Assembly: GCA_012519885.1 (NCBI GenBank)
Contig: JAAYPI010000094.1
Location: 1-43,042 of the forward strand
From: Bacteroidales bacterium
Lineage (GTDB): Bacteria; Bacteroidota; Bacteroidia; Bacteroidales; Paludibacteraceae
Direction of reading: 5' to 3'
Length of the DNA stretch: 43,042 nt
Below, piece by piece: positions 14,111 through 39,944 of this stretch. Numbering within the stretch: the stretch's first letter is position 1; each line of letters begins with the position of its first letter. Both the position numbers and the translations under genes were made by a program. A model generated the notes under the pieces. It was not told where the DNA came from. It saw nothing but the letters and a program-made list of their open reading frames with translations, and did no database searches.

Positions 14111-15079
14111 ATGACTAATAAAGAAAAATATTCTCAACTTTGTACTGAAAATGATACTATTCCATTGTTTTTACAACATTGGTGGATGGAAGCTGTATGT
14201 ACCAAAGCCAGTAAAGAGTGGGATGTGTTGTTGTATGAAAAGAATAAAAAAGTAATAGCAGCTTTGCCTTATCATTTTATCACCAAATTGGGGATGAAGG
14301 TTATTTTGGAACCACAATTAACACAGTATTCGGGGGTGTGGATTGACTATCCAAATGGTATCACTGACAAAGAACGCTATTCGCTGGAGGAAGAGGTTTG
14401 CAAAGGGCTTATAAGTCAGTTGGATACACTATCGTGGGTGCATTATATGCAACATTTTCATTATCGATTTACCAATTGGTTGCCATTCTTTCAGCAAGGG
14501 TTTACACAAACTACACGTTATACCTATCGTATTGAGTCTATTGGCAATACCCAAGATGTGTTTGACAACTTTCATCAAGGGAAACAAAAACACATAAAAA
14601 AAGCCAAAGATTTGTCAGTTGATTATTCTCTTTCAGCAGCCGATTTTTATGCCTTTTTATCCCATACTATAGCTCAGAAGCAACAGCAAGTAGTCTATAG
14701 TCAGTCCTTTTTTGTTGGTTTGCACCAACAGGCTGTTGAGCGTGAGCAAGGACAAATTATTGCTGTGCGTGATAAAACTGGAGCGATACATGCTGCTATG
14801 TTTGTTGTTTGGGATCATCTGTCGGGCTATTACTTAGTTTCAGCCATTGACGCCAACTACAAACATTCAGGAGCATCTTCGCTGATGCTGTGGGAGGCTA
14901 TTTGTTTTTTATCCTCACGCACCAAGTCGTTTGATTTTGAAGGAAGTATGATTAAAGGAGTAGCCAAAGCTAATCAAGAGTTTGGCGGTGTACAAACGCC
15001 GTATTTTTCCATCAGCAAGTCTCGTTCGGGTGTGTTGGGTTGTATGTTGAATGTATATCGATGGTTATGGAAAAAATAA
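14111..15079 (+). CDS. FemAB-like / GNAT-fold acyltransferase (first of pair)
   Basis: From ATG 14111 it has 322 residues. The C-terminal half (about 150-300) has the pattern of the acetyltransferase_6 / FemAB-like fold: a basic QGKQKHIKKAKD helix, GAIHAAMFVVWD, GYYLVSAIDANYKHSGASSLMLWEAI and FDFEGSM. Relatives transfer aminoacyl or acyl groups to peptidoglycan precursors or exopolysaccharides. The substrate is unknown here. The upstream reading-frame start at 13991 would overlap dgkA and precede the promoter. The next gene, also FemAB-like, overlaps its end. Confidence 0.75.
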   Translation: MTNKEKYSQLCTENDTIPLFLQHWWMEAVCTKASKEWDVLLYEKNKKVIAALPYHFITKLGMKVILEPQLTQYSGVWIDYPNGITDKERYSLEEEVCKGLISQLDTLSWVHYMQHFHYRFTNWLPFFQQGFTQTTRYTYRIESIGNTQDVFDNFHQGKQKHIKKAKDLSVDYSLSAADFYAFLSHTIAQKQQQVVYSQSFFVGLHQQAVEREQGQIIAVRDKTGAIHAAMFVVWDHLSGYYLVSAIDANYKHSGASSLMLWEAICFLSSRTKSFDFEGSMIKGVAKANQEFGGVQTPYFSISKSRSGVLGCMLNVYRWLWKK

Positions 15080-16041
15080 GCAAACAAGAGTTTTATAGTT
15101 TAATTAAAGGGTTTGAACAAATTCCTTTTACGCAAACAGAAGCCTGGGTTACTGCTCATAGTCGCCATGATGATACGAAGTTGGCATTCTTTGTTGACCA
15201 ACTACCAGAACCATTAATTGCTTGTGTAGCACATGTAAAAAAGAAAGCTGGACTCAAGATGTACTACATCGAAGCTGAAGCCATTCGATACAAAGATATA
15301 AAGCATGCTAAGCTAACATCTTTTTTTCAAGATTTGCAACAAACAGGAGTGGATGTTATTGAAATTAATTCGCCAATGCCGTATGATGCAACATACGAAA
15401 TAGCCTTGCGACAAGCAGGTTTTTTGCGTCCTGTTGGGCAGTTTTCGGTGGCTTTAAGTTCGTATATCTCTCTTGAAAATGAAATAAAGTACAATGATAA
15501 TTGGAAGCGGAATATGAAGAAAGCAGCTAATAATCAGTTATCTTTTGAGGTAATTGATAATGCTGTTAGTGATGATATCAATGATTTTATAAAATTGTAC
15601 AACGAAATGAGTGTTCAAAAGAATGTTGCTCCAACATTTACTTTTTCCTCTCTTCGTACCTTGTTAGCAAGTGCTAATTTCAAGTTGTTTTTTGTGAAAA
15701 ACGAGCAAAACGAACGTATTGCTACCATATTAATACATTACAACAATAACCATGCAGGATTGGTGTATGCTGCTTCTGGCGAAAAAGCTCATCAATGTGC
15801 AGCGAGTTTTTTTATGTACGACAAATTGTTTCATTATTTGTCGCAGCAACACATAAAGACTTTTGATATGGAAAAGCTAGCTCCTTCTATTCATTCTACC
15901 AATGCAGTGTTCTTGTTTAAGAATGGCATAAAAGGAGAATACATAGTGGTGAATGGAGAATGGTCGTGGCATAAAAATAGCTTTTTACGTCCTTTGATGT
16001 ATATCGCAAAAAAATGGTTTTTGAAAAAGATAGAGTGGTAG
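15061..16041 (+). CDS. FemAB-like acyltransferase (second of pair)
   Basis: A 326-residue protein if started at ATG 15061; 15067 is equally possible. It overlaps the previous gene by about 19 nt, so the pair is probably cotranslated. Recognisable features are KYNDNWKRNMKKAANN (basic helix before the second domain, near residue 150), an FFVKNEQNERIATILIHY strand pair, GLVYAASGEKAHQCAASFFMYDKL and FDMEKLAPSIHSTNAVFLFKNGI, which fit the FemAB/GNAT fold. It is not a close copy of its neighbour. It converges with the asparagine-synthase-like gene, with only 5 nt between the stops. Confidence 0.72.
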   Translation: MVMEKISKQEFYSLIKGFEQIPFTQTEAWVTAHSRHDDTKLAFFVDQLPEPLIACVAHVKKKAGLKMYYIEAEAIRYKDIKHAKLTSFFQDLQQTGVDVIEINSPMPYDATYEIALRQAGFLRPVGQFSVALSSYISLENEIKYNDNWKRNMKKAANNQLSFEVIDNAVSDDINDFIKLYNEMSVQKNVAPTFTFSSLRTLLASANFKLFFVKNEQNERIATILIHYNNNHAGLVYAASGEKAHQCAASFFMYDKLFHYLSQQHIKTFDMEKLAPSIHSTNAVFLFKNGIKGEYIVVNGEWSWHKNSFLRPLMYIAKKWFLKKIEW

Positions 16042-16046
16042 GCTAC

Positions 16047-17594
16047 TTAATCAACTATCTTTTTTACCTGTTGCCAATACCATTCTAAAAATACCCGATT
16101 GTAACCACCCATCCCATTTGTTGCTGTTTTTGGTAGTTGCTGTTTTAATGGTGCAGAAATTTCTTTCATACACACATAATCAGGCGGATTGGAAATATAC
16201 TGCTGAATGTGAGCGGGTAACAATTGTTTGCACTGCCTTTTAAACCTATACCATTTCATTCGCCATTCTGGGTATGTTAATTCATCTACAAATGCAACAT
16301 TCATGGGCTGAAATACCTTGCTTGTAAGGTAATGGTGGTAAAATTTTTGTGTTTGTTTTTCTTCAATGGGTAATGTTTTGAAAAATTCAATCATTTCATT
16401 GTCCCAAAAAGGCAAGCGAGTTTGATGACCAAAAAAGCCATAAATACGTGCTGCATTATTGATATTTTTAGGTAATTTTATAAGCAAATCTACATCATCG
16501 AACACGCTATAGGGTAGATAATCTTTGCGTTGCTTGATAAAGTCGTTCATTTTTTGTTTAATAGTAGCGTTTTTCAAGCCATTGCCATACGCAAATTTTT
16601 GTTCTAGCACTAGCTTTTCAACCTCATTCAATGTAGTTTCCAGCGTAATTCCGGCTTTTTGTAATTGACTACCAGCAAGAAAATCGCCAGAATGTCCTGG
16701 AATAAATATGGCATCTTTTTCAATGATGTTTTGCTCAGTCAGCGTTTTTACCCCTACATATTCGTACATCCAAAAGAAATTGGTAAAATAACCAGAGTAA
16801 CGATAATAAGCCTCAAATGTATTGTCATCTAGGTACGAGGGTGTTTCGTTCGAAATAAATACATGCTTATATCCTAGCGTTTTTGCTACTTTTTGGGCTA
16901 TTATTAACTCTAGATTATTGGGTCTGCCTACTGTATAGCAAAGCACATTTTTATACCCAAGTTTGGCTAACATACATACAATTAAGCGAGAATCGTAGCC
17001 ACCACTCAAGGGTACAACTACTTGTTTCCCTTTGCACGAGGTAAGTAATCGATGAAAAACATCGTTCAGCACCGTTTCAAATTGCTGATTGTAATCTTTT
17101 GCTACAGCTATCTCGTGCTTTTTTACTGCAAAAGTGTAATAATGATGTATATCAAGGTGGTTATTCTTACAAATAATATAACTGGATGGTTGCACTTGAA
17201 ATATCCCTTTAATCAGTGTTTTTTCATCCAACACAACCGAAGAATACAGGTATTCATTAAGTGCAGAGGTATCAACAACTGGCGATGTGGGAAACAATGT
17301 ATATGGATTATTGGATACGATTACTTGATTATTTTCTATGGCATAAAAAAGAGGAATCAAGCGTGTTTTATCCATGATAATAATCGTTTCGCTATCTCGT
17401 TCAATGATGCAGGCAAATATTCCATTAAGCGAACGTACGAATGATTCTAAATGATTTTCTGTGATTTGTTGGAGTAACGCAATAAGTGATTCTTTTTCAT
17501 AAAAATTTCCTTCTGTATCAAAACAATAGCCAGCTACCCAAACGCCATTGGCACTTGTCCACGAGATGGGATTATGTTTGTCAAGTTTAACCAT
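16047..17594 (-). CDS. Asparagine synthase-like amidotransferase without glutaminase cysteine
   Basis: A 515-residue protein with the two-domain layout of asparagine synthetase B. Residues 1-150 keep the Ntn fold (LNGIFACII at 56-64, DKTRLIPLFY at 75-84), but the protein begins MVKLDK, so there is no Cys2 nucleophile for glutamine hydrolysis. The synthetase domain has the PP-loop SGGYDSR (197-203) for ATP. It would adenylate a carboxylate and use ammonia or another amine. Such proteins occur in exopolysaccharide clusters as amidotransferases of unknown target. It overlaps the glycosyltransferase gene by 8 nt and ends the flippase operon. Confidence 0.85.
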   Translation of the reverse strand: MVKLDKHNPISWTSANGVWVAGYCFDTEGNFYEKESLIALLQQITENHLESFVRSLNGIFACIIERDSETIIIMDKTRLIPLFYAIENNQVIVSNNPYTLFPTSPVVDTSALNEYLYSSVVLDEKTLIKGIFQVQPSSYIICKNNHLDIHHYYTFAVKKHEIAVAKDYNQQFETVLNDVFHRLLTSCKGKQVVVPLSGGYDSRLIVCMLAKLGYKNVLCYTVGRPNNLELIIAQKVAKTLGYKHVFISNETPSYLDDNTFEAYYRYSGYFTNFFWMYEYVGVKTLTEQNIIEKDAIFIPGHSGDFLAGSQLQKAGITLETTLNEVEKLVLEQKFAYGNGLKNATIKQKMNDFIKQRKDYLPYSVFDDVDLLIKLPKNINNAARIYGFFGHQTRLPFWDNEMIEFFKTLPIEEKQTQKFYHHYLTSKVFQPMNVAFVDELTYPEWRMKWYRFKRQCKQLLPAHIQQYISNPPDYVCMKEISAPLKQQLPKTATNGMGGYNRVFLEWYWQQVKKIVD

Positions 17595-18756
17595 GAATAA
17601 TTTGTTTATACACCGCCAAAATTTGTGAAGCTACAGCTTTTTGGCTACACACAGAAACGGCAAATTGCCTAATATCGGTAGATGAGAAATTGGCATGATG
17701 CTCAATCATGTAGATCATTGCTTCTGCTAGTGCATCTGCATTGTCTGTTTTGCAACGTACACCGATAGTAGGGGTAACAATTTCGGAAGGCACCACCTCT
17801 GTACACACAATAGGCAATCCACAGCTCATGGCTTCTAAAATAGCCACAGATTGTGACTCTATTCGGCTTGATAAAACAAACGAATCGCTTTTATGTAAGT
17901 AATGCAATACGCCTTCAGGTGGTTGGTATCCTTTAAATTCTATTTTATTTTTTGAGCGTAATTTGTTGAGCTGAACTACAAATTGAGCATCATCAAATCC
18001 ATTGCCCAATAACAGTAAAGTTGTTTCAGGATATTGTGCATATACTTTTTCAAAAGCATCTAGCAATACATCGTAGGCTTTGGCAAAATGATAAGAATTG
18101 GCATTGATAAAGGTGAATGGTCGGATAGGATTTTGTTCTTTCTTTTCGGTATAGAAATCTGTATTTACAACATTTGAAATTGTATAAATTGGAACATTCT
18201 CTCCAGCATAAAGAGCCACTTTCTTACGCAGTTGTTCCGATACAATGATGATACTATGTGCATTTTCGAACGCTTGGTACAAAAAAGGATGATAGCTTAA
18301 CGGAAATAGCTCGTCAGATTCAATAGAATTTTCAGAAAAACGACCTCTATGTTCGGTAATTACGTACGGAACGCCATAACGTTGCTTGATAAGTGCAGCA
18401 GCGTATCCAGCCCACATACTACTGTGTGTGTGAATAATATCTGGATGACCAAATTTCTCAAAATACATATCATATAGTCGCAATGTATTTCTAACCCATA
18501 GTTTCATATTCCACATATCAGCAAAAGGTATTCTTTTGGCGTAATAACGCAGTAGAGTAATACCATTTTCTTCGGTAAAAAAAGGTTTTCTGGGAAACGA
18601 ATAAATGCGAGATTTGTATTTTCGCCAAGGAAGTGCCACATTAGCCAAGATATGTACCTCAACGCCAGCTTGTTTTAGAGCAATGCTTTGTTCTGTACAA
18701 AACATCCCTCCTTCGGGGATATACCAAGATGGTAACTGTAACACTCTCATAATCAA
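17587..18756 (-). CDS. Glycosyltransferase family 4 protein
   Basis: A 389-residue GT-B retaining glycosyltransferase. The N-terminal domain has MRVLQLPSWYIPEGGMF and IIHTHSSMWAGYAAAL; the C-terminal nucleotide-sugar domain has LLLLGNG, IEFKGY and the EX7E motif in ESQSVAILEAMSCGLPIV. Donor and acceptor are not predictable. The annotated ATG is followed by a second at 18750, which places MRVLQL first and may be the true start. It overlaps the flippase stop by 4 nt (ATGA type), so the chain flippase, GT4, AsnB-like is tightly coupled. Confidence 0.92.
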   Translation of the reverse strand: MIMRVLQLPSWYIPEGGMFCTEQSIALKQAGVEVHILANVALPWRKYKSRIYSFPRKPFFTEENGITLLRYYAKRIPFADMWNMKLWVRNTLRLYDMYFEKFGHPDIIHTHSSMWAGYAAALIKQRYGVPYVITEHRGRFSENSIESDELFPLSYHPFLYQAFENAHSIIIVSEQLRKKVALYAGENVPIYTISNVVNTDFYTEKKEQNPIRPFTFINANSYHFAKAYDVLLDAFEKVYAQYPETTLLLLGNGFDDAQFVVQLNKLRSKNKIEFKGYQPPEGVLHYLHKSDSFVLSSRIESQSVAILEAMSCGLPIVCTEVVPSEIVTPTIGVRCKTDNADALAEAMIYMIEHHANFSSTDIRQFAVSVCSQKAVASQILAVYKQIIHG

Positions 18757-20039
18757 ATTCGTTTAATTTCGTACTGTTTTACCAGATGCCAATACCAAAG
18801 TAGTTGAACAAGTATAATTAAAGCACTTGCAACACAATAATATGCGATGGCAAGATAGAAATTTTGTTGCCATATTCCAATCATTAATGCACAAAATCGT
18901 ACAATAAATGAAAGAATTTCAAGCAACAAGGCAATTCTTTGTTGAGAAAAAATATCTGCTAAATATGTAATGGGTGCAACTGTTGCTGATAGGGCTAACC
19001 AAGGTAGCATTAACTGAATATATTTTCCGCTTTGATGCCAACCATTACCCAGTAACCATTCGGTAAGCATAGGTAAAAAGAAAAATAGCACACCAAATAA
19101 GGGTATAAGCAAGGTAAATGTTCGTAAAAAGTATCGTTTAAAAAATGGCATAATGGAGTCATTGTCGTTTACCTTTTGGGTGGTAATAGGATAGAATACT
19201 TGATGTAGCGAACTAGAAATAATATTGATTGGGCGAAATGCAAGTGTAAGTGCCATACCAAAAAAACCTATTTCTGCCAATGAAAAAAATGGAGCTAAAA
19301 AGATAATTGGCAAACTTCCTCCTAAGGTGTTGATTAAGCTGTGTGGTAAAGAATAGAATGGGAAATTTTTATATGTTGTTGCCGTTTCTACTATTTCTTG
19401 TCGTTGTATATGCAAAGTTCTTGACAAACCTTTTTTCCATGCCACTATAAAACCTACGGCAAAAGCAATTACTTGTGCAAGTATAGTGCCAATTAATAAA
19501 CCACCACGTAAAAACCCCATGATACCTAACATATATTTTAGTATCGAAGAACCCAAGCTGTTACTAATTTGATAAAATGCTATGGGTTTGTACCATTGGT
19601 GTCGTGTAAACCAGTAGTTAAGAATGTTCCATGTTGCGGTCAATAATACGAATATGGGGAGTAAATACAGGTATTCTCCTAATGACTCAGAATTAAATAA
19701 TTTGCCAATCTGTGATGAAAAGAGTAGGAAGAAACTACTTATACCTACTACAATAAGGTTCAGTATAAAGGATAATTTTATACAAGCTAGGGCTTTTGTT
19801 TCTTCTTTTGGTAGCACAATGGCATAATGGTAGTTCCCAGTTCCAATAATTGCCAATATTCCGCCGATACTTAAAAATAGATTGAACAATCCGAAATCGT
19901 CAGGGGCATAAATGCGTGTCAGTAAAGGATATGCCAATAAGGCAATGGCTTGTGATAAGCTATTGGCAGTAAGCAATGTTGCTGTGTGTTTAAAAAACGA
20001 TGACCTAAAAAACTGACGCATCCGTTTGTAATTAATCAC
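18753..20039 (-). CDS. Polysaccharide flippase of the MOP superfamily (Wzx-like)
   Basis: A 428-residue membrane protein with about 12 predicted hydrophobic segments. The N-terminus is typical of oligosaccharide flippases: LTANSLSQAIALLAYPLLTRIYAPDDFGLF, then GTGNYHYAIVLP. It would flip an undecaprenyl-linked glycan across the inner membrane. First gene of the three-gene operon. No polymerase or initiating phosphoglycosyltransferase is nearby, so the glycan must be started elsewhere or be a short unit. A second ATG at 20021 is a possible alternative start. Confidence 0.88.
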   Translation of the reverse strand: MINYKRMRQFFRSSFFKHTATLLTANSLSQAIALLAYPLLTRIYAPDDFGLFNLFLSIGGILAIIGTGNYHYAIVLPKEETKALACIKLSFILNLIVVGISSFFLLFSSQIGKLFNSESLGEYLYLLPIFVLLTATWNILNYWFTRHQWYKPIAFYQISNSLGSSILKYMLGIMGFLRGGLLIGTILAQVIAFAVGFIVAWKKGLSRTLHIQRQEIVETATTYKNFPFYSLPHSLINTLGGSLPIIFLAPFFSLAEIGFFGMALTLAFRPINIISSSLHQVFYPITTQKVNDNDSIMPFFKRYFLRTFTLLIPLFGVLFFFLPMLTEWLLGNGWHQSGKYIQLMLPWLALSATVAPITYLADIFSQQRIALLLEILSFIVRFCALMIGIWQQNFYLAIAYYCVASALIILVQLLWYWHLVKQYEIKRI

Positions 20040-24292: not shown

Positions 24293-24679
24293 TTAACGTT
24301 TGCTGAATTGGAATCTTTTGCGAGCTTTTGGACGACCTGGTTTTTTACGTTCCACTTCGCGTGGATCACGGGTCATGAAGCCTTCTGATTTCAATGCAGG
24401 TTTGTCTTCTGGGTTGATTTTAACCAATGCACGAGCGATTGCCAAACGCAATGCTTCTGCTTGTCCTTTAAAACCACCACCATTTAAGTTTACCTGAATA
24501 TCGTATTTTTCTACCACATCTAATTTAGCAAGTGGTTGTTTTACGATATACTGTAAAATTCCTGATGGAAAATATGAATCAATACCTCTTTTATTGATAA
24601 CAATATTGCCTTTACCTTCTCTCACAAATACGCGAGCTACAGCGGCTTTTCTTCTTCCTATTGCATTTGTAATTTCCAT
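24293..24679 (-). CDS. rpsI: 30S ribosomal protein S9
   Basis: 128 residues with the IGRRKAAVARVFVREGKG start, GGGFKGQAEALRLAIARAL core and the invariant basic C-terminal tail ending SKR that reaches the P-site tRNA. It lies 5 nt after rplM, the ancient L13-S9 pairing. Confidence 0.98.
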   Translation of the reverse strand: MEITNAIGRRKAAVARVFVREGKGNIVINKRGIDSYFPSGILQYIVKQPLAKLDVVEKYDIQVNLNGGGFKGQAEALRLAIARALVKINPEDKPALKSEGFMTRDPREVERKKPGRPKARKRFQFSKR

Positions 24680-29070: not shown

Positions 29071-29562
29071 ATGTTAGTTCGTTTTGGCAAAATAATACGC
29101 AATTATTACATTCAATTTCTCGATTTTTTGTATCCGTTATTTAAACAGTGGATGCACAAAGGGCTGTTTTATTATTTAGCTTCGGGTGGTATTAATGTGG
29201 GCACTAACTGGATTATGTATTTTGTAGTGCATAACTTTGTGGTGCAAAAACAGATAGTTGACTTAGGATTTATCGCCTTTAGTCCGCATATTGCGAGTTT
29301 GATTATTACTTTTCCGTTTACCTTTTTACTGGGTTTTGGATTGTCGAAATATGTAAGTTTTGCCGAATCGACCGTGCGAACGAAGACGCAATTTTTTCGA
29401 TATGCTGGTATAATTGGGTTTAACTTCTTGGTAAGTTATCTTTCTATGAAATTATTAGTAGAATGGTTTGGTATATATCCAACGCCATCTAATATGATTA
29501 CAACTATCATAACCAGTGTGGTTAGTTATTTTTCTCAAAAACACTATTCGTTTAAAAAGTAA
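29071..29562 (+). CDS. GtrA-like family membrane protein
   Basis: A 163-residue protein with four transmembrane helices. GtrA-fold features are FYYLASGGINVGTNWIMYFVV, TFPFTFLLGFGLSKYVSF and FFRYAGIIGFNFLVSYLSM, ending SYFSQKHYSFKK. GtrA-type proteins are thought to move lipid-linked sugars across the membrane or to support glycosyltransferases. No GT2 partner is next to it. The following membrane protein begins 5 nt later. Confidence 0.88.
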   Translation: MLVRFGKIIRNYYIQFLDFLYPLFKQWMHKGLFYYLASGGINVGTNWIMYFVVHNFVVQKQIVDLGFIAFSPHIASLIITFPFTFLLGFGLSKYVSFAESTVRTKTQFFRYAGIIGFNFLVSYLSMKLLVEWFGIYPTPSNMITTIITSVVSYFSQKHYSFKK

Positions 29563-29567
29563 GAGAG

Positions 29568-30518
29568 ATGCGGTTTTTAGATAAATATTACAAGTGGATT
29601 AAAATAGTGATTATGGTGTGTGCCTATGGATATTTGGCATATATTTTACTCCATTTTGATAATTATGAAGATTTTACTTCAAATTTTACAAACTTAAACG
29701 CTCAAAAGTTTATATTCTTGCTTGTTGTTTTCTGCCTATTGCCAATTAATCTATTTGTAGAATCTCTGAAATGGAAAACATTGGTTTCTGTTATGCAAAG
29801 AATTCCTATTCGGGTAGCTTACAAGGCTGTTGTAGCTGGTATCACCACTGGGTTTTTTACCCCAAATAGAATAGGAGAACCTCTTGGTCGGATTATGTTT
29901 TTGGATTCGCAAAATCGTTCGCAAGCAATAGCACTTTCCTACGTTGGTGCTTTTGGTCAAAGTTTTGCTACGTTTTTATGTGGAGTCATTGCAGGTTTTT
30001 TGTTGATTTTTTCACCAGCATTTAGTGCGTATCAAAATTCTACGGGTATGCAAACGGGTGCTGTATTATTTTTAGTGATGTTTATATCTTTGTATTTTTC
30101 GCTACCATATTTGTGTAGAAAAATTACAAAAATTAGTAAATTTGATAAAGTGAATTATTTGCTTGAAGCTATATCCTATATTTCTCTAAAGAGACTTTTT
30201 GTTGTTTCAGCACTTTCTTTACTTAGGTATACGATATATGTTTCTCAGTATTATTTTTTATTATTGTGTTTCGGGGTGGATATTTCAATGTACGAAGCTT
30301 TTGTCGCTATACCAATTAATTATTTGCTTGTATCTATAACACCTTCAATCGCATTTGCCGAAATGGGCATTAGAGGATCGTATGCTATTATTATCATAGG
30401 AGCTTTTTCACACAATCCTCCTGCAGTAGCTTTGGCTGGAGTTACGGTTTGGCTAATAAATTATGTTATTCCCATGATAACTGGTTCACTTCTTTTAACC
30501 GCAAAAAAGAAACTTTAA
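29568..30518 (+). CDS. Lysylphosphatidylglycerol synthase-like / flippase-like integral membrane protein
   Basis: A 316-residue protein with about eight hydrophobic segments. Family signatures include SLKWKTLV, GITTGFFTPNRIGEPLGRI (residues about 90-108) and PINYLLVSITPSIAFAEMGIRGSYAI. It matches the UPF0104/AglD-like N-terminal transmembrane domain of MprF without the catalytic lysyltransferase domain. Such stand-alone domains may act as lipid flippases. It is coupled to the GtrA-like gene, suggesting a shared lipid-linked sugar or lipid transport job. Confidence 0.82.
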   Translation: MRFLDKYYKWIKIVIMVCAYGYLAYILLHFDNYEDFTSNFTNLNAQKFIFLLVVFCLLPINLFVESLKWKTLVSVMQRIPIRVAYKAVVAGITTGFFTPNRIGEPLGRIMFLDSQNRSQAIALSYVGAFGQSFATFLCGVIAGFLLIFSPAFSAYQNSTGMQTGAVLFLVMFISLYFSLPYLCRKITKISKFDKVNYLLEAISYISLKRLFVVSALSLLRYTIYVSQYYFLLLCFGVDISMYEAFVAIPINYLLVSITPSIAFAEMGIRGSYAIIIIGAFSHNPPAVALAGVTVWLINYVIPMITGSLLLTAKKKL

Positions 30519-30604: not shown

Positions 30605-32158
30605 ATGACAAATATACATATTTTATGGGTAGATGATGAAATTGACTTATTGCGGTCTCATATTCTATTTTTAGAGTCTAAAGGATATACGGTAACTACG
30701 GCTAATAGTGGACATGATGCATTGGCATTGTGCAAAAAAGAAACGTACGATATTGCTTTCTTAGACGAAAATATGCCAGGATTAAGCGGTCTTGAAACCT
30801 TGTCAGAGATAAAAAAAATGCAACCAGCATTGCCTATTATCATGATAACGAAAAATGAGGAAGAGGATATTATGGAGCAGGCAATTGGGAAAAAAATTGC
30901 AGATTACTTAATAAAGCCTGTTAATCCCAACCAAATTGTGATGGCAATTAAAAAATGTTTGCATTCCAAACAATTAATTTCAGATAAAGTAACGAGTTCA
31001 TACCAGTCTGCTTTTACCCAAATCGGTATGGAGATAAATGATACATATACATTCGAAGATTGGAAAAAGGTTTACAAACATTTAGTGTATTGGGAGTTGG
31101 AGCTAGAGCATGCAGATAATCAGATGGATTCGTTGCTGATGATGCAAAAGAATGAAGCCAATGCAAATTTTACAAAGTATATTAGAAAGAATTACACATC
31201 CTGGTTTGAGCCCAATGACGATAAACCTTTGATGAGTCCAGATATTTTTAAATCGAAGGTTTTCCCATTCCTAGACAAAGGAGAAAAGGTGTGCTTTGTG
31301 GTCATTTATAATTTGCGTTTCGATCAGTGGAAAGTATTGCAAAAAGAATTGTCTCAATGGTTTTACACTGCAGATGATGATTTGTATTGTGGTATTTTAC
31401 CTACTGCTACTCAATATGCACGAAATGCAATTTTTGCGGGATTAATGCCTTTGCAGATCCAAAAAATGTTTCCCCACTATTGGATAGAAGAGGAGGATGA
31501 GGAGGGGAAAAATATGAAGGAAGAAGAGTTGTTACAAACGCAACTTGATAGATTTAGAAAAAAATACAGTTTTTCGTATCATAAGATTAATACTTCGCAA
31601 GCTGGCGAAAAATTGAACGAACAGATTCATCAGTATTTGGCAAATGATTTGAATGTGGTGGTATTTAATTTTATTGATATGTTATCGCATGTGCGTACCG
31701 AATCCAAAATTTTTAGAGAGTTGGTGCCCGATGAGGCTGCATATCGGTCGCTTATTTTATCGTGGTTCAAACATTCTTCTACCAATGATTTTTTTAAAAT
31801 ATTAGCAGAAAAGGGTATTAAAGTAGTCCTTACGACCGACCATGGTACTATACGTGCAAAAAATCCGATTAAAGTGGTAGGAGATAAGAATACAAATACG
31901 AATTTACGCTACAAAGTAGGAAAAAATTTAAGCTACAACAAAAAAGAGGTATTTCCTATAACCCAACCAGAACTCATTGGGTTGCCTAGTCCCAATATCA
32001 GTTCTCATTATATTTTTGCTACGCAAGAAGATTTTTTTGCCTATCCGAATAACTATAATTATTACGTCAGTTATTACAAAGATACGTTTCAACATGGTGG
32101 TATTTCTTTGGAAGAAATGCTCATTCCAATTGCGGTATTAGAACCTAAACGAAAATAA
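30605..32158 (+). CDS. porX: T9SS response regulator with PglZ/alkaline-phosphatase-like domain, PorX
   Basis: PorX works with sensor PorY and controls T9SS gene expression. The 517 residues have an N-terminal receiver (acidic pair DD10-11, phospho-acceptor Asp54 in FLDENMPG, Lys104 in LIKP) and a helical linker. A C-terminal PglZ-type phosphatase-fold domain follows, with candidate nucleophile threonine in ILPTATQYARNAIF (about 267-269) and metal ligands in TTDHGT (about 420). The reported activity of the P. gingivalis homologue is zinc-dependent phosphodiesterase action on cyclic and linear oligonucleotides. All key residues are present. ldcA starts 2 nt downstream. Confidence 0.93.
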   Translation: MTNIHILWVDDEIDLLRSHILFLESKGYTVTTANSGHDALALCKKETYDIAFLDENMPGLSGLETLSEIKKMQPALPIIMITKNEEEDIMEQAIGKKIADYLIKPVNPNQIVMAIKKCLHSKQLISDKVTSSYQSAFTQIGMEINDTYTFEDWKKVYKHLVYWELELEHADNQMDSLLMMQKNEANANFTKYIRKNYTSWFEPNDDKPLMSPDIFKSKVFPFLDKGEKVCFVVIYNLRFDQWKVLQKELSQWFYTADDDLYCGILPTATQYARNAIFAGLMPLQIQKMFPHYWIEEEDEEGKNMKEEELLQTQLDRFRKKYSFSYHKINTSQAGEKLNEQIHQYLANDLNVVVFNFIDMLSHVRTESKIFRELVPDEAAYRSLILSWFKHSSTNDFFKILAEKGIKVVLTTDHGTIRAKNPIKVVGDKNTNTNLRYKVGKNLSYNKKEVFPITQPELIGLPSPNISSHYIFATQEDFFAYPNNYNYYVSYYKDTFQHGGISLEEMLIPIAVLEPKRK

Positions 32159-34490: not shown

Positions 34491-35447
34491 TTATCTACAG
34501 AAATATTTTGGAATACAGAAAGAATATCCAAGCATTATTTCGTGCGAACCGTAGCTATGCGTTACCAAGTTATTTAAGTCTAGGCTAAATGAGTATCCTA
34601 ATTGGAATTTGCCGAAACGTACACCACCCATTGGCATTAGCATAAGACTTTGTCCATTATCGCGGTCGAAACTTTGACGATACGATGCTTGAATCCAATA
34701 ACCAAAATCTCTATCTACTTCTTGACCAAATTTTAAATTAATATCCCCTCCAATATTCCCATATTGATTTGCCTTTACCATAATAGATGGTTCGATGAAA
34801 GCATCATAATCTAGTTCAAAGGCATTTCCTAAGAAAAAGAATCCTGTAAATGGAGCAGGCACTTCTTTATCACCAAAAATATCGGGTGTTGTTGGGATTA
34901 AATTTGTAAGAGATAGACCGGTAAAGAAACCATATGATTTAAAGTAAATACCAAAATTAGCATTTGGCGAAAGTCCATCAGGATTGGCAAAAGCATTATC
35001 CCCTTGTGTGCTAGGGTCGTCCAATAATTCTTGGTTAATGCTAAAATAATTCAACTTAAATGAAACCCCAAATGATAGTTGTCTGTCAAGAGCTACATTT
35101 TTACTGTATCTACGACCGTCACTTAATGGGATGTGATAGGCAAATGTAGCTTGTCCTCCTATTCTATTTGAATATCCATTACGGTCATTATACAAAAATG
35201 CCCCTATTCCTATTCTGTCCAATGCCCTAGTACGGAAACTTAATGTTTGTGTCATAGGGAATTCATCCATCCCTACCCATTGAAATTTATTTGTTAGCAT
35301 AAAATGTGAACAAGGCTCAGCACCAGCCAATGCGGGATTAGCTAAATAATAATTAAAATGGTATTGGTTGTACACGATTTCTTCTTGTGCTGACAAGGAT
35401 ACAATACTTGTCAAACTTAGAATCGCAATAACTAGATATTTTTTCAT
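34491..35447 (-). CDS. PorP/SprF family T9SS outer-membrane protein
   Basis: A 318-residue beta-barrel-like protein with a signal peptide (residues 1-20, ending LSAQ). The family hallmark after it is QYHFNYYLANPALAGAEPC, followed by NKFQWVGM, SFRTRALDRIGIGAFLYNDRNG and many alternating aromatic strands. The C-terminus is MLGYSFCIPKYFCR. SprF of Flavobacterium johnsoniae is needed to secrete the adhesin SprB encoded beside it. By analogy this protein would partner the giant type B cargo encoded just upstream, not serve as core PorP. It has its own promoter and terminator. Confidence 0.9.
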   Translation of the reverse strand: MKKYLVIAILSLTSIVSLSAQEEIVYNQYHFNYYLANPALAGAEPCSHFMLTNKFQWVGMDEFPMTQTLSFRTRALDRIGIGAFLYNDRNGYSNRIGGQATFAYHIPLSDGRRYSKNVALDRQLSFGVSFKLNYFSINQELLDDPSTQGDNAFANPDGLSPNANFGIYFKSYGFFTGLSLTNLIPTTPDIFGDKEVPAPFTGFFFLGNAFELDYDAFIEPSIMVKANQYGNIGGDINLKFGQEVDRDFGYWIQASYRQSFDRDNGQSLMLMPMGGVRFGKFQLGYSFSLDLNNLVTHSYGSHEIMLGYSFCIPKYFCR

Positions 35448-35499
35448 ATGTTCAGATTAAAAATAGGTCTCTTTTGTTTTCTAAAAAATATTTATGTGC

Positions 35500-35507
35500 C
35501 AAAGATA
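35500..35507 (-). promoter_or_regulatory. -7 element of the porP-like gene
   Basis: TATCTTTG on the minus strand in the 81-nt gap after the adhesin stop; leader about 46 nt. No -33 TTTG at the expected distance. It suggests independent or additional expression relative to the adhesin. Confidence 0.5.
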
Positions 35508-35528
35508 CAATTTTCATTGATATTTCTA

Positions 35529-38500
35529 TTATCTTTTTAGCGTAAAATGTCCCGTGTATTGTTTTCTTACTTCTTCTAAAGTAATTAAGTACCAATAGTC
35601 TGTGCTTGGTAATGGATGTCCAAGATAATTACCGTCCCATTGGAATGGATGATAATTAACTTCGCCATCTGCATGGAATTGTCCTGAACGCACTTCGTAA
35701 ATTAACTTGCCAAAACGGTCAAATATTTGTACAATATACGATGGATAAACGTTTAAGTTCTCTATTGTCCAATAATCATTTACGCCATCATCGTTGGGTG
35801 TAAAGAATTTTGCTGGGAATATTGGAATAGGTGTTACTTCAAACGGTCTTGATGCTTTGCAATTATTCATATCAACAACATATAGTATGTGCCCACCTAT
35901 GCTTACATCATGTAGCACATTATGTGTTATGAAATCTCTATTGTTAATGGAATAGGAATAAGGAGGTAAGCCATTTTCCACATAAGCAGTTACTTCTCTT
36001 ACATTGGTTTCTTCAATGTTGGTAATTACAGGAAGAGGAACAACAGTTACTGTCGTTTCTGTTACATCAGAGCAAGCTCCTCGTGTAATTTCTACCGAAT
36101 ATACAGTAGTAACACTTGGCGATGCTATTGGATTGCTTATATTTGGATTGTTTAATCCAGTAGCTGGAGTCCAGCGATAGGTTGTACCTCCAGTAGCAAC
36201 GAGTGGCGTATTGTCTCCTAAGCATATTGTAGTAGGTGCAGATACGGTAGGAGTAACTGCACCATCTACTGTTACTGTTACTTGACGCGTTGCTGTACAT
36301 ACTCCCATAACTACAGCAGTATAAGTAGTAGTGGTTGTAGGAGTTACATCTATAGTTGGTTCCATTCCAATTATACCCAAGCTAGTAAAAATTTCTTCTA
36401 AAAAGCTTTCATCTATTAGAGGTAATTCATCTTCATTTATTGGTTCTTCATTTGTAAGGTCGTCTTCCTCATCTGATATAGGGTATTCAAATTCATCTTC
36501 TACAGCTAGATCTTCTGTATATTCATCATCAGGAACTATGTCATCTAATGTTGAAAACATCATATTCATCAAAGCTTCTAAAAGGTTAGTCGTTTCACCT
36601 ACGAAAGCGTCTTTAAATGCATTCATAAAATCATCAGCATTTATGTCTCCTTCAATCCAAAATGTGACTGCTTCTTCAGGATAATTACTCATAGTAAGTG
36701 TAGTGGTAGCACCTGCACAAATCGTAACATTACTACTTACGTCAAAATTTAGAGGCGGTTCTACTCTCACCATCACTTCATTGCTCACGCGTGTACATTC
36801 TCCATTAATAGCTGTTTTGCGATAAGTAGTAGTTACTTGAGGTGCAATGCCAGTTAAGTTTTTGCTTGTTTGGCTCATGGTTGTCCAGTTGCCTGTTTCT
36901 GTACGAGATTCCCACACATAACTAGCAGCATTTTCTGTGTTGATATCTTCTATATCTATCGTTCCTCCCAAGCAGATAACATCACTCGAAATTTCTAATT
37001 CGGGTGTAATAGGTGTACTAACGGTAATTGTAATAGTACCAGCTCCATCACAAGAGCCTCCTTGTAGTTCTACTGTATACACTGTATTTGCAGTTAAGTT
37101 TTGTTCAGTAATCGTTGTTCCTGTTTCTGTCATCTCTACACCATCTTTTTTCCACAATAATGTTTCGCCAGTGTTTAGGGTAATTTGGGCAGTTAAAACT
37201 ACTAAATCGCCCGCACAAATAGCATTATTGGTAGCAGAAGAGGTAATTGGTATATCTACTTCGGTACCAACGGCTATGGTTACTGTTTTTTCTGTTTCGC
37301 AAATACCGTTATCAATAACTAAACGATAAGTTACATCGCCTTGAGTCGTGCCTACAAGGTCGTCTTGATGTGTAATGCTTGTTTCATTTGTTAATGTTCC
37401 AGAGCCAACTGGGGTAGTACTAGTCCCCTTGTACCAGGCATAGGTACTTCCATTTTCGTCGGTAGTAATAGTAGCTGTTAGTGTAGCTTTAGGGTCGCTC
37501 ACACATACAAGCGTAGGTGCCGTAAGCGTAAACTCAGGCAAAGCTTTGACTTGGTACATCACTGTATCTCTGAAATCACAACCAGTAGGGTCAGTGCCAA
37601 CTATGATTAGTTTGCCTTGACCAACAGTAGTAGGTACAGTATACGTATTGCCTGTTCCTAAAACTGATTCATCACTTGCTTTCCATGTGATAGTCGCTGT
37701 AGCTGGAGATTTATTGATTACAGTAAAGGTGCGTTCATCAATTGTTGAATTGGTACACACATTAATTTCCGTTTTATCTACCATAAATGTAACACCTGGT
37801 TTAATATTGATGGTAACCTCTGTACGTGTGCTTTCGCAATAGGTCGTAGTGCCTTCGTCTGCCAGTTGGTTTGTTACATAAAGAGTGGTAGAGCCAACTG
37901 TTGTCCAATCAAATGTGGTGGTAGTAAGAGCCGTGCCTCCAGTAGCTTGTGTGTACCATCTGAGGTTTGTTTTATCACTTGTTACCAAATCAGCTAAGGT
38001 ACCTGTTCCAGTTAATGGGCATTCGTCGTAATTAGTTACTGATGGAGGAGGTGTTGCCGTACAAGGATTGTCTATGGTTAACCATAATTGGTCAGAAACT
38101 GCAGAAATTTGTCCGCAACCAGTTTGAAGAACTGTAGGATGATCTGCCCTTGCTTCTGCTGTGGCTTTGTCAGCTGCTACAAATGCTCTATAGTAATATT
38201 TTTTATCTAGATACTTAGCTAGTGTGATATCTACATCCACATAGTCGTTGGGCCCGCTATAAATATTTGTCCAATTATTTGTTCCATCGAGAGACTCTTG
38301 TATTACATACCAAGGATTTGAGAAAAACTCGGTAAGTTTGTAAGGAGACCATACATATACCCTCTCTTTATTTTCTGTTTCAAATGTTTGATTCTTTTTA
38401 GTATATTCTGCATTTGAGAATACTTGTATTTCAGGAGAGCAGGTACTAAAGGTGATATCGTCAATGGCAATGTCATTACCAATAACCTTACCTCCAGTAA

Positions 38501-39944
38501 CGTAGGGCGTAGAATCTAAATTGTTAAATAGCTGTACTTTTACACTGGTAAAATTTCCAGAGTTAAACGACCCTCCTTTTTCTACCCAGTTGGTGCTTGA
38601 GGGTAAGTCTCCTGATTCAACCTTTATTAATTCTGTAGTACAATTGGTTCCATTACAGCCAAATACCCTGAATCCAACATTTACAGGAGCTCTTACTTGT
38701 CCGGTTTCTGAGGTAGCATTGGCAACGTAGGATGAGAAGTCGTAAATCGTGTTGGGACATAAACCCGTAAATGTTTGTTCGTAGAATACCGCAGGAGGCA
38801 CATCAGCATTAACCAACAAAAATCCATCTGAGGTTCCTTTGTCTGTTCCTGCTGCAGTAGATAGCGATGTTGAATTCCCTGTTAAACCTCTATCTTGCCA
38901 AAAGGTACATCCATCGATATTGGTGCTCTTAACTATGGCATATTGTCCTTCTTCAATATCGCCTGAGCTTTTATAAGTATAGGTATCACCAGTTGAAGCG
39001 TTTCCCGATTGCATGGTTGGTGTTTTGTCTGTACGGGCTCCTAAATGTGTGCCTGAAAAAGTAAATCGCTCTGCTGCAATGGTTTGTCTATCACCCGCTA
39101 CTGCACAACATACTATTGGACGGACTGTTATAGCTTGTAGTGTGGTGGCACCCGCTGTTACTTTGTAGCGTGTTTCGGTAGTAGGCAATACTGTGATAAC
39201 TTTCGTTGTTTGAGGGATGGTTGTCCAAGTTGCACCCGCATCTTCAGACTGTTCCCATGTGTAAGACGTGGCATTAAGACCCCGTGCAATCAGTTGATTT
39301 TCGTTACCTGCACATACTTTTTCTCCGTTTTCTGATACAATTTTTTGTTCAATGCACCCTGTAACTTTGATAGAAGTGATTTCTACAATATAACAGTCGT
39401 TTGAAAAGTTTGACCCTAAAGAGATTGTTGCTTTTCCACTAGTAGGAGCTGTAAAAGTTTTTGTAAAAGTATATGTTGAATTTTGCACTTCTTTATATTC
39501 TGGATTTTCGCTACCTACAGTAAACTTAAATTTGACACCCATCCAGTCTTGCATTGTTGCACTACAACCAGGATTTGGATACGTTTTTACTGCGATTTCA
39601 ACTTTATATTGATTTTGGCCAGCAGTAGTAGTTAGGTTGCTTAAAGCATAGGAAATAAAACCATATTCATTTGCAGTTTTTGTAGCAATTTTCAGGCTAT
39701 TATTGCTAATAGTATATTCCCCCCGATTAAGGATATTTGAGTTTTTAAAAGTCATACCAGAAGTTAAGACTTCCGATGATGGATCTTCTAAACGGATTTG
39801 ATCAATGTTGTAATTGGCAGAAGTTACACCTGTTTTTGGTTGAAACGTGGTGCCACTAAACTGAGTTGTACAACTTTGGGCATACAGATGAGCGGTAAAC
39901 AAAGAGGATACAAAAATAACGAGCAAAATAGCAAACTTTTTCAT
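35529..39944 (-). CDS. Giant secreted multi-Ig-domain adhesin with T9SS type B (CHU_C) C-terminus
   Basis: A 1,471-residue secreted protein. Signal peptide 1-22. Residues about 25-200 resemble a jelly-roll carbohydrate-binding domain, and another such domain follows (about 285-505, ending DIAIDDITF). A series of Ig-like repeats then runs to about 1,360, each with a Cys near the start, a central W and a TxTTTYTV-type last strand. The C-terminal domain (about 1,375-1,471) has FFTPNDDGVNDYW, VQIFDRFGKLIYE, WDGNYLG and DYWYLITL, the gliding-motility-associated type B sorting signal. One Ig domain is split by an acidic insertion (about 1,097-1,195). The ligand is unknown. Confidence 0.92.
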   Translation of the reverse strand: MKKFAILLVIFVSSLFTAHLYAQSCTTQFSGTTFQPKTGVTSANYNIDQIRLEDPSSEVLTSGMTFKNSNILNRGEYTISNNSLKIATKTANEYGFISYALSNLTTTAGQNQYKVEIAVKTYPNPGCSATMQDWMGVKFKFTVGSENPEYKEVQNSTYTFTKTFTAPTSGKATISLGSNFSNDCYIVEITSIKVTGCIEQKIVSENGEKVCAGNENQLIARGLNATSYTWEQSEDAGATWTTIPQTTKVITVLPTTETRYKVTAGATTLQAITVRPIVCCAVAGDRQTIAAERFTFSGTHLGARTDKTPTMQSGNASTGDTYTYKSSGDIEEGQYAIVKSTNIDGCTFWQDRGLTGNSTSLSTAAGTDKGTSDGFLLVNADVPPAVFYEQTFTGLCPNTIYDFSSYVANATSETGQVRAPVNVGFRVFGCNGTNCTTELIKVESGDLPSSTNWVEKGGSFNSGNFTSVKVQLFNNLDSTPYVTGGKVIGNDIAIDDITFSTCSPEIQVFSNAEYTKKNQTFETENKERVYVWSPYKLTEFFSNPWYVIQESLDGTNNWTNIYSGPNDYVDVDITLAKYLDKKYYYRAFVAADKATAEARADHPTVLQTGCGQISAVSDQLWLTIDNPCTATPPPSVTNYDECPLTGTGTLADLVTSDKTNLRWYTQATGGTALTTTTFDWTTVGSTTLYVTNQLADEGTTTYCESTRTEVTINIKPGVTFMVDKTEINVCTNSTIDERTFTVINKSPATATITWKASDESVLGTGNTYTVPTTVGQGKLIIVGTDPTGCDFRDTVMYQVKALPEFTLTAPTLVCVSDPKATLTATITTDENGSTYAWYKGTSTTPVGSGTLTNETSITHQDDLVGTTQGDVTYRLVIDNGICETEKTVTIAVGTEVDIPITSSATNNAICAGDLVVLTAQITLNTGETLLWKKDGVEMTETGTTITEQNLTANTVYTVELQGGSCDGAGTITITVSTPITPELEISSDVICLGGTIDIEDINTENAASYVWESRTETGNWTTMSQTSKNLTGIAPQVTTTYRKTAINGECTRVSNEVMVRVEPPLNFDVSSNVTICAGATTTLTMSNYPEEAVTFWIEGDINADDFMNAFKDAFVGETTNLLEALMNMMFSTLDDIVPDDEYTEDLAVEDEFEYPISDEEDDLTNEEPINEDELPLIDESFLEEIFTSLGIIGMEPTIDVTPTTTTTYTAVVMGVCTATRQVTVTVDGAVTPTVSAPTTICLGDNTPLVATGGTTYRWTPATGLNNPNISNPIASPSVTTVYSVEITRGACSDVTETTVTVVPLPVITNIEETNVREVTAYVENGLPPYSYSINNRDFITHNVLHDVSIGGHILYVVDMNNCKASRPFEVTPIPIFPAKFFTPNDDGVNDYWTIENLNVYPSYIVQIFDRFGKLIYEVRSGQFHADGEVNYHPFQWDGNYLGHPLPSTDYWYLITLEEVRKQYTGHFTLKR

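Follow-up and report, generated by a model that had tools for sequence, protein, structure and literature searches.

A recurring FemAB, AsnB-like, glycosyltransferase and flippase cassette in Bacteroidales, possibly a Vim-like module for aminoacylated lipid-linked glycans

A compact cassette of five genes, encoding two FemAB-like proteins, a cysteine-less relative of asparagine synthetase B (AsnB), a family 4 glycosyltransferase (GT4) and a MOP-family flippase, lies in a 43,042-nucleotide stretch of DNA (hereafter the window; contig C27, GenBank JAAYPI010000094.1) from a Bacteroidales bacterium of the Paludibacteraceae, whose genome (GCA_012519885.1) comprises 2.28 Mb in 219 contigs. The five genes are a real, recurring module. 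The closest known system is the Wbp/Vim pathway of Porphyromonas and Tannerella rather than exosortase loci, and the explanation favored here, with a little under an even chance of being right, is that the cassette is a Vim-like module decorating and exporting an aminoacylated, possibly amidated lipid-linked glycan, perhaps one that serves as an anchor in type IX secretion. Such a pathway is of a known chemical style and is composed of ordinary enzyme kinds, with one new enzyme variant; this altered, presumably amide-forming AsnB-like family is the most interesting part of the module.

Recurrence was assessed with five gene searches over one set of 81 genomes, source genome included. GT4 was close to the flippase (within 5 kb) in 8/8 genomes carrying both, FemAB2 to GT4 in 6/7, and the AsnB-like gene to the flippase in 5/6, to GT4 in 4/6 and to any FemAB in 5/7. 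FemAB1 (E<1e-40) was close to the flippase in 7/15 genomes, compared with approximately 0.1 expected at random placement, an expectation that assumes 2.5-Mb genomes and is uncorrected for relatedness (G000/G001 and G018/G046 share genera). Orthologs of the AsnB-like gene lay within 10 kb of another module member in 7/8 cases (exception, G006), and a same-genus genome retains all five genes in identical order and orientation. In G023, the FemAB1-FemAB2 pair converges on GT4-flippase without an AsnB-like gene between them, so the amide step looks dispensable or optional. The location of the cassette also varies: a prolyl-tRNA synthetase gene adjoins it in G007, Lyase_1 and polysaccharide-deacetylase genes in G023, and an Aminotran_5 gene in G018. 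The initial annotation had proposed that rare co-occurrence of the FemAB pair and the flippase operon in related genomes would mark them as unrelated neighbors; this alternative was rejected, as their co-location across the 81 genomes is far above chance.

Open reading frames (ORFs) and Pfam matches bore out the five genes of that annotation and its two convergent units, which are separated by 5 nt (16042-16046; Table 1). Of the overlaps it listed for the minus strand, the 8-nt AsnB-like/GT4 overlap stands, whereas the 4-nt GT4/flippase overlap requires a TTG start at 18756; the ATG at 18750 instead leaves a 2-nt gap, which is also present in the ORF calls of the same-genus relative L083. The start of FemAB2 at ATG 15067 is the most likely one and gives a 13-nt overlap with FemAB1, the frame of which is open from 13991, with the alignment of relatives beginning at 14111. 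A promoter and terminator scan showed no excess over shuffled sequences.

Table 1. Genes of the cassette, with window coordinates, profile matches and predicted roles
Gene	Position	Strand	Profile match	Assignment or remark
FemAB1	14111-15079	+	PF13480, 36.9 bits (cut-off 22)	Tandem-GNAT (FemX-fold) protein, predicted aminoacyl transferase
FemAB2	15067-16041	+	PF02388 FemAB, 24.5 bits (cut-off 24)	Second, distinct FemAB-family transferase
Cys-less AsnB-like protein, 515 aa	16047-17594	-	PF00733 Asn_synthase, 41.8 bits (cut-off 21)	Predicted ATP-dependent amide synthetase
GT4 glycosyltransferase	17587-18756	-	Pfam Glycos_transf_1/Glyco_transf_4	ATG at 18750 is the likely start
MOP-family (Wzx-like) flippase	18753-20039	-	PF13440 Polysacc_synt_3, 81.4 bits; PF01943 Polysacc_synt, 42.1 bits; above cut-off	

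The AlphaFold model of FemAB1 (predicted local distance difference test score, pLDDT, 92.6) has its best solved Foldseek matches in FemX, FemA and Sbb17 (template modeling score, TM, approximately 0.7), and comparison with FemX chains (TM 0.69-0.72 by query length, E 1.8e-14 to 4.8e-12) indicates a tandem GNAT fold. FemX and FemA use aminoacyl-tRNA, and the title of the Sbb17 structure describes it as aminoacyl-tRNA-dependent. On the strength of this model, FemAB1 is predicted to be an aminoacyl transferase, VimA-like in kind. FemAB1 was found in 29/81 genomes at E<1e-40 and FemAB2 in 9/81 at E<1e-60, the source genome being included in both counts, and a FemAB1-type gene adjoins FemAB2 in 9/9 genomes (the FemAB1-type matches of G050 and G078 are weak). 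FemAB2 matches the FemAB1 profile with an hhalign probability of 97.2; sequence searches of the PDB with either protein gave no real match. In a quick tree, supported by Shimodaira-Hasegawa-like approximate likelihood ratio tests (SH-aLRT) only and containing some long branches, FemAB1 of the window falls in a 29-row clade (SH-aLRT 97) next to a 17-row clade (SH-aLRT 99), and FemAB2 is placed outside the FemAB1 groups. Members of the 17-row sister clade are FemABs beside VimE-like genes in 11/17 rows, the others having no such neighbor, and the two clades match each other over 278 columns (profiles of eight members each; hhalign 99.7, E 3.5e-27).

The absence of the catalytic cysteine from the AsnB-like protein, recognized in the initial annotation, proved to be a family-wide loss of the nucleophile. 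In an alignment of 88 rows, in which five contigs are counted twice (L083/L123, L084/L126, L086/L127, L089/L159 and L090/L174), Cys occurs in the first five residues of 0/88 rows, and the glutaminase residues R49, N74 and E76 are likewise kept in 0/88; the numbering and roles of these residues, as of D98, Glu348 and Lys449, are taken to be those of E. coli AsnB. The D98 column holds Asp in 18/88 rows, and the sub-threshold GATase_7 match in the AsnB-like protein spans just profile positions 57-116. The SGG[YF]DS motif is kept in 88/88 rows (Y in 66, F in 22) and the Asp of GH[ST]GD in 86/88, which argues for retained ATP chemistry. At the Glu348 column, His is found in 82 of the 88 rows, Tyr in 4 and Phe in 2, and the Lys449 column is a gap in 88/88 in a region where the alignment is weak; all of these columns come from a low-identity sequence alignment that is most reliable at the SGG and GH[ST]GD motifs. 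Among 20 other AsnB relatives, Cys1 is present in 12 and absent in 8, the Lys449 column is Lys in 14, and the Glu348 column is Asp in 9, Glu in 2 and His in 2, with two of the eight Cys1-less comparators also carrying His. In these alignments, His at the Glu348 column is typical of the AsnB-like family, though the column also varies elsewhere.

The AlphaFold model of the AsnB-like protein (pLDDT 93.9) matches AsnB, TsnB9 and the beta-lactam and carbapenam synthetases over 376-437 residues (Z 22-24). The structure predictions recommended in the initial annotation, run for these two proteins, returned a FemX-like FemAB1 and an AsnB-like protein of the AsnB superfamily. Beta-lactam and carbapenam synthetases are Cys-less AsnB relatives as well. 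However, structural-alignment identity to these synthetases and TsnB9 is 13-15%, the AsnB-like protein sits in a glycan locus, and it has His at the column where the two synthetases presumably have Tyr. A rather doubtful but attractive possibility is that the Cys-less AsnB-like proteins constitute a separate family of flippase-coupled glycan amide ligases, joining an adenylated sugar carboxylate to an amine not derived from glutamine, in many Bacteroidota anchoring secreted proteins. As part of the same joint claim, the amine would be an amino acid, an amino sugar or an amine just installed by the partner FemAB, the product would be an undescribed amide-linked surface sugar, and His would replace the Asp or Glu usual in relatives. 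The case for a new ligase family is somewhat lowered by the other Cys-less AsnB relatives, two of which share the His. It is quite unlikely that the AsnB-like protein is instead a non-catalytic scaffold or receives ammonia from a separate glutaminase; the missing Cys1, the three altered glutaminase columns and the Lys449 gap would fit such a role, but the near-invariant SGG[YF]DS and GH[ST]GD motifs speak against it.

To place the AsnB-like protein in a wider context, genome contigs were searched with a profile of its alignment, which yielded 423 relatives; the counts that follow refer to the best 80 of these 423 loci, at least five of which lie on contigs already among the 81 genomes, with neighbors scored by profiles of the five families. 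The nearest relative among the best 80 (L123, from a metagenome-assembled genome labeled Paludibacteraceae) shares 56% identity. A flippase lies within 3.5 kb of the AsnB-like gene in 57/80 loci, and in 49/66 of those whose upstream flank measures 3.5 kb or more; in 53/57 it is encoded on the same strand and upstream. GT4 lies within 3.5 kb in 27/80. FemAB occurs within 10 kb in 19/80 loci, or in 12/30 of those with both 8-kb flanks, 10 of these being convergent. Since FemAB is absent near most AsnB-like loci, flippase and AsnB-like protein appear to form the core, with FemAB as a frequent partner. Lutibacter, Polaribacter and Flavicella mostly arrange these genes as flippase, AsnB-like gene and hexapeptide-type gene, with FemAB and a DUF7033 protein on the opposite strand and RadC beyond, and in a locus labeled Prevotellaceae (L125) flippase-GT4-AsnB-like converges on FemAB2 alone. 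By contig label, for which binning errors are possible, Cys-less AsnB-like proteins also occur in Methanosuratincola (L173), another archaeon (L160), Delongbacteria (L155/L161), Arcobacter (L186) and Pelosinus (L201), and a flippase-profile gene lies just upstream in 4/6 of these loci outside Bacteroidota (L155, L161, L186 and L201).

A further connection to the Vim system is provided by VimE-like genes, which were searched for with the NCBIfam model NF053580 (cut-off 440 bits; 75 matching places in the 81 genomes). In 9/80 loci the AsnB-like gene has a DUF7033 gene, always of one and the same cluster, at most 5 kb away. All nine contain FemAB, which is no more than 160 bp from the DUF7033 gene in 8/9 and 1.45 kb from it in L148; the DUF7033 protein of Polaribacter glomeratus (L167), the sole member scored, reaches 174 bits on NF053580. 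In Flavobacteriaceae, the FemAB/VimE-like pair converges on the AsnB-like gene, mostly with a hexapeptide-transferase-sized gene between, and in G054 it does so directly, as the FemABs of the window do. A VimE-family match lies within 3 kb of a FemAB1-type match in 10/57 genomes with both. VimE scored over the cut-off in 26/81 genomes (L209-L234); several of these genes adjoin a gene with a weak GT4-profile match. In 30 VimE loci of relatives, no FemAB-profile gene was found in flanks of up to 1.5 kb, and among 20 VimE regions inspected FemAB stands beside a VimE-like gene in G074 only. The vimA gene presumably adjoins recA. RecA was found in 55 of the 56 genomes (out of 139) with a TIGR03019 match; by visual inspection, it shared a contig with such a match only in G180, there approximately 56 kb away.

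The system nearest to the cassette is the Wbp/Vim linking-sugar pathway. In P. gingivalis, cargo of the type IX secretion system (T9SS) is joined by an amide bond to 2-N-seryl,3-N-acetylglucuronamide, and in T. forsythia to 2-N-glycyl,3-N-acetylmannuronic acid, the amino acid being set by VimA, with VimE as a putative deacetylase (PMC7468200). According to the same source, VimA matches N-acetyltransferase and TIGR03019 models, and WbpS (PGN_1234), whose relatives form family TIGR03108, makes the uronamide; its gene is directly downstream of wbpE(porR) and wzx(porS) in P. gingivalis, where WbpS is nonessential, and in the available part of that text no asnB homolog was seen in T. forsythia (PMC7468200). 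The gene porS encodes a membrane protein similar to Wzx (PMC8003790). This linking-sugar work has been extended (PMC13086638; PMC11969387), including an N-alanyl deoxyhexose in P. intermedia (PMC11969387). The cassette shares with this pathway a predicted amino-acid transferase of GNAT/FemAB type, a glycosyltransferase and a T9SS host (VimA and PGN_1234 were compared by description only), an AsnB-superfamily enzyme beside a Wzx-type flippase, in the window within the same operon as GT4, the apparent dispensability of the amide enzyme, and a VimE-like protein beside FemABs of the sister clade. Unlike it, the cassette has two FemABs and holds all its genes in one convergent unit, its AsnB-like protein is devoid of the glutaminase residues and reaches 50.6 bits on the WbpS-type XrtA amidotransferase model TIGR03108 (cut-off 816.9; the model was applied to this protein and not to the rest of the source genome), and the source genome has no over-cut-off VimE. 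Because the AsnB-like protein fails the WbpS-type test and VimE fails its cut-off, the cassette may work like the Vim pathway without being filed as a member of it. No description of a FemAB, AsnB and flippase module was found among listings of the open-licence PMC literature.

XrtA/PEP-CTERM exopolysaccharide loci, with their TIGR03019 FemAB and TIGR03108 amidotransferase, comprise the same enzyme kinds and had been singled out in the initial annotation, but they could not be maintained as the nearest relative: FemAB2 reaches 27.1 bits on TIGR03019 (cut-off 260.35), the AsnB-like protein is likewise far below the cut-off of TIGR03108, and FemAB1 has no NCBIfam match. No exosortase, polymerase or initiating-transferase family was detected among the 35 window proteins scanned with Pfam (35 of 38 ORFs; three short ORFs, with starts at 24293, 24685 and 42684, were left out), the searches for exosortase and polymerase being confined to these proteins. 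The reported lack of all three thus holds for the scanned proteins but not, for initiating transferases, in the genome as a whole, which has two matches, on contigs C44 and C119.

Under the Vim-like reading, GT4 would extend a short glycan on a lipid carrier begun elsewhere in the genome, FemAB1 and probably FemAB2 would transfer an amino acid from aminoacyl-tRNA to the amino group of a sugar, and the AsnB-like protein would adenylate a carboxylate (that of a uronic acid in this glycan being the simplest case) for attack by an amine. Because its glutamine-hydrolyzing residues are lost, the AsnB-like protein would use free ammonia or a substrate amine. The flippase would then turn the lipid-linked product to the periplasm for joining to lipopolysaccharide (LPS), and the exposed aminoacyl amine could accept cargo C-termini via the type IX sortase, as happens in Porphyromonas and Tannerella. 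An aminoacyl- and amide-decorated lipid-linked glycan, first suggested from the gene content, fits the predicted folds of FemAB1 (FemX-like) and of the AsnB-like protein (AsnB superfamily) as well as the flippase; the proposed shortness of this glycan may or may not apply. Such a module would matter in that, in the accessible parts of the sources, only P. gingivalis, T. forsythia and P. intermedia have a described T9SS cargo-anchoring sugar; the signature of flippase and Cys-less AsnB-like protein, which in some loci converges on FemAB, either with a VimE-like gene or without one, yields candidate genes from marine Bacteroidota, for example Polaribacter and Lutibacter.

Signals of type IX secretion are abundant: the source genome has 26 matches to the TIGR04183 cargo signal, 23 of them over the cut-off, and T9SS signals occur in 78/81 genomes. 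The three genomes without T9SS (G056, G059 and G063) show no match to any of the five genes, but so small a number carries no weight, and the completeness of G059 is 61%. Elsewhere in the window, the gene at 30605-32158 encodes a response regulator fused to a PglZ domain, a layout which is taken to be that of the T9SS regulator PorX, and at 34491-39944 a PorP/SprF gene stands beside that of a 1471-aa protein carrying Ig_7 and a T9SS signal of the CHU_C kind (type B), the two perhaps forming a cargo/anchor pair.

Several observations weigh against a Vim-like anchoring module. With T9SS in nearly all of the genomes, its co-occurrence with the cassette is uninformative, and the occurrence of the AsnB-like family under archaeal, Delongbacteria, Arcobacter and Pelosinus labels means that it is not T9SS-specific; glycan decoration is therefore a more likely general role of the family than T9SS anchoring as such. 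FemAB1 and the flippase are apart or on different contigs in 8/15 genomes, making their link looser than those of the other pairs, although pairs on different contigs of draft genomes are not judgeable. Among the AsnB-like loci, 61/80 have no FemAB within 10 kb (18/30 with long flanks), and at the thresholds applied 15/80 lack both flippase and GT4. Some of these 15 reach a contig edge, and one (L126, on a contig also listed as L084) carries a MOP flippase of a different type. The VimE connection is incomplete as well: in 47/57 genomes over 3 kb separate the VimE-family and FemAB1-type matches, or the two lie on separate contigs; the 26 over-cut-off VimE genes have no FemAB-profile gene in flanks of up to 1.5 kb; where relatives have a VimE-like gene next to FemAB, it always scores below the cut-off; and the sole VimE match of the source genome (160 bits; C63:24946-25992) has none of the five families around it. 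Moreover, contig C119 carries an equally good candidate locus for a T9SS linking sugar (L206). It holds Bac_transf, a UDP-sugar dehydrogenase, a hexapeptide protein, a DegT aminotransferase and glycosyltransferases, together with a third FemAB, which scores 49 bits on TIGR03019, and, where the contig ends, a DltB-like fragment; the presence of the dehydrogenase and the aminotransferase in the genome also counts in favor of the Vim-like reading.

Other assignments of the whole cassette were weighed on the same evidence. The possibility that it forms the species-specific outer part of the general Bacteroidota protein O-glycan, acting on that glycan instead of LPS, is unlikely but deserves consideration. 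The corresponding T. forsythia cluster has wzx at one end, transferases and AsnB, its glycan holds mannosaminuronamide (PMC6120980), and gene content near the flippase varies among relatives of the present cassette as well; on the other hand, that cluster spans 27 kb with nonulosonic-acid genes, its AsnB has 605 aa and so differs from the 515-aa Cys-less protein, no FemAB or deacetylase is named for it in the available portion of the source (PMC6120980), and the recurrent VimE-like/FemAB link points to aminoacyl sugars. There is also a small chance that the genes serve a conventional repeat unit of an O-antigen, capsule or exopolysaccharide, one that bears amino-acid and amide substituents and is unrelated to protein anchoring. 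All five enzyme kinds are common in such loci, which, like the initiating transferases elsewhere in the genome and the AsnB-like loci labeled as taxa outside Bacteroidota, counts in favor of this option, but the scanned window proteins include no polymerase family (the search covered these proteins and not the genome), and the unit is small and recurrent, unlike a full repeat-unit locus. Far less probable is a role of the FemAB pair in making peptidoglycan cross-bridges on lipid II, the minus-strand operon then being a separate glycan unit: FemX and FemA are indeed the nearest solved folds of FemAB1, yet FemAB1 and FemAB2 are found near flippase, GT4 and VimE-like genes much more often than chance would give, and their patchy distribution among the 81 genomes would be odd for a cell-wall bridge.

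The immediate surroundings of the cassette consist of a diacylglycerol kinase gene and a phosphoribosyltransferase/zinc-ribbon (ComF-like) gene on one flank and a methionyl-tRNA synthetase gene on the other. Many of the remaining scanned genes of the window are housekeeping genes (SecA, RecG, Lgt, IspD, EF-Ts, ribosomal S2 and others), and a GtrA-like membrane protein followed by an LPG_synthase_TM protein is encoded at 29071-30518.

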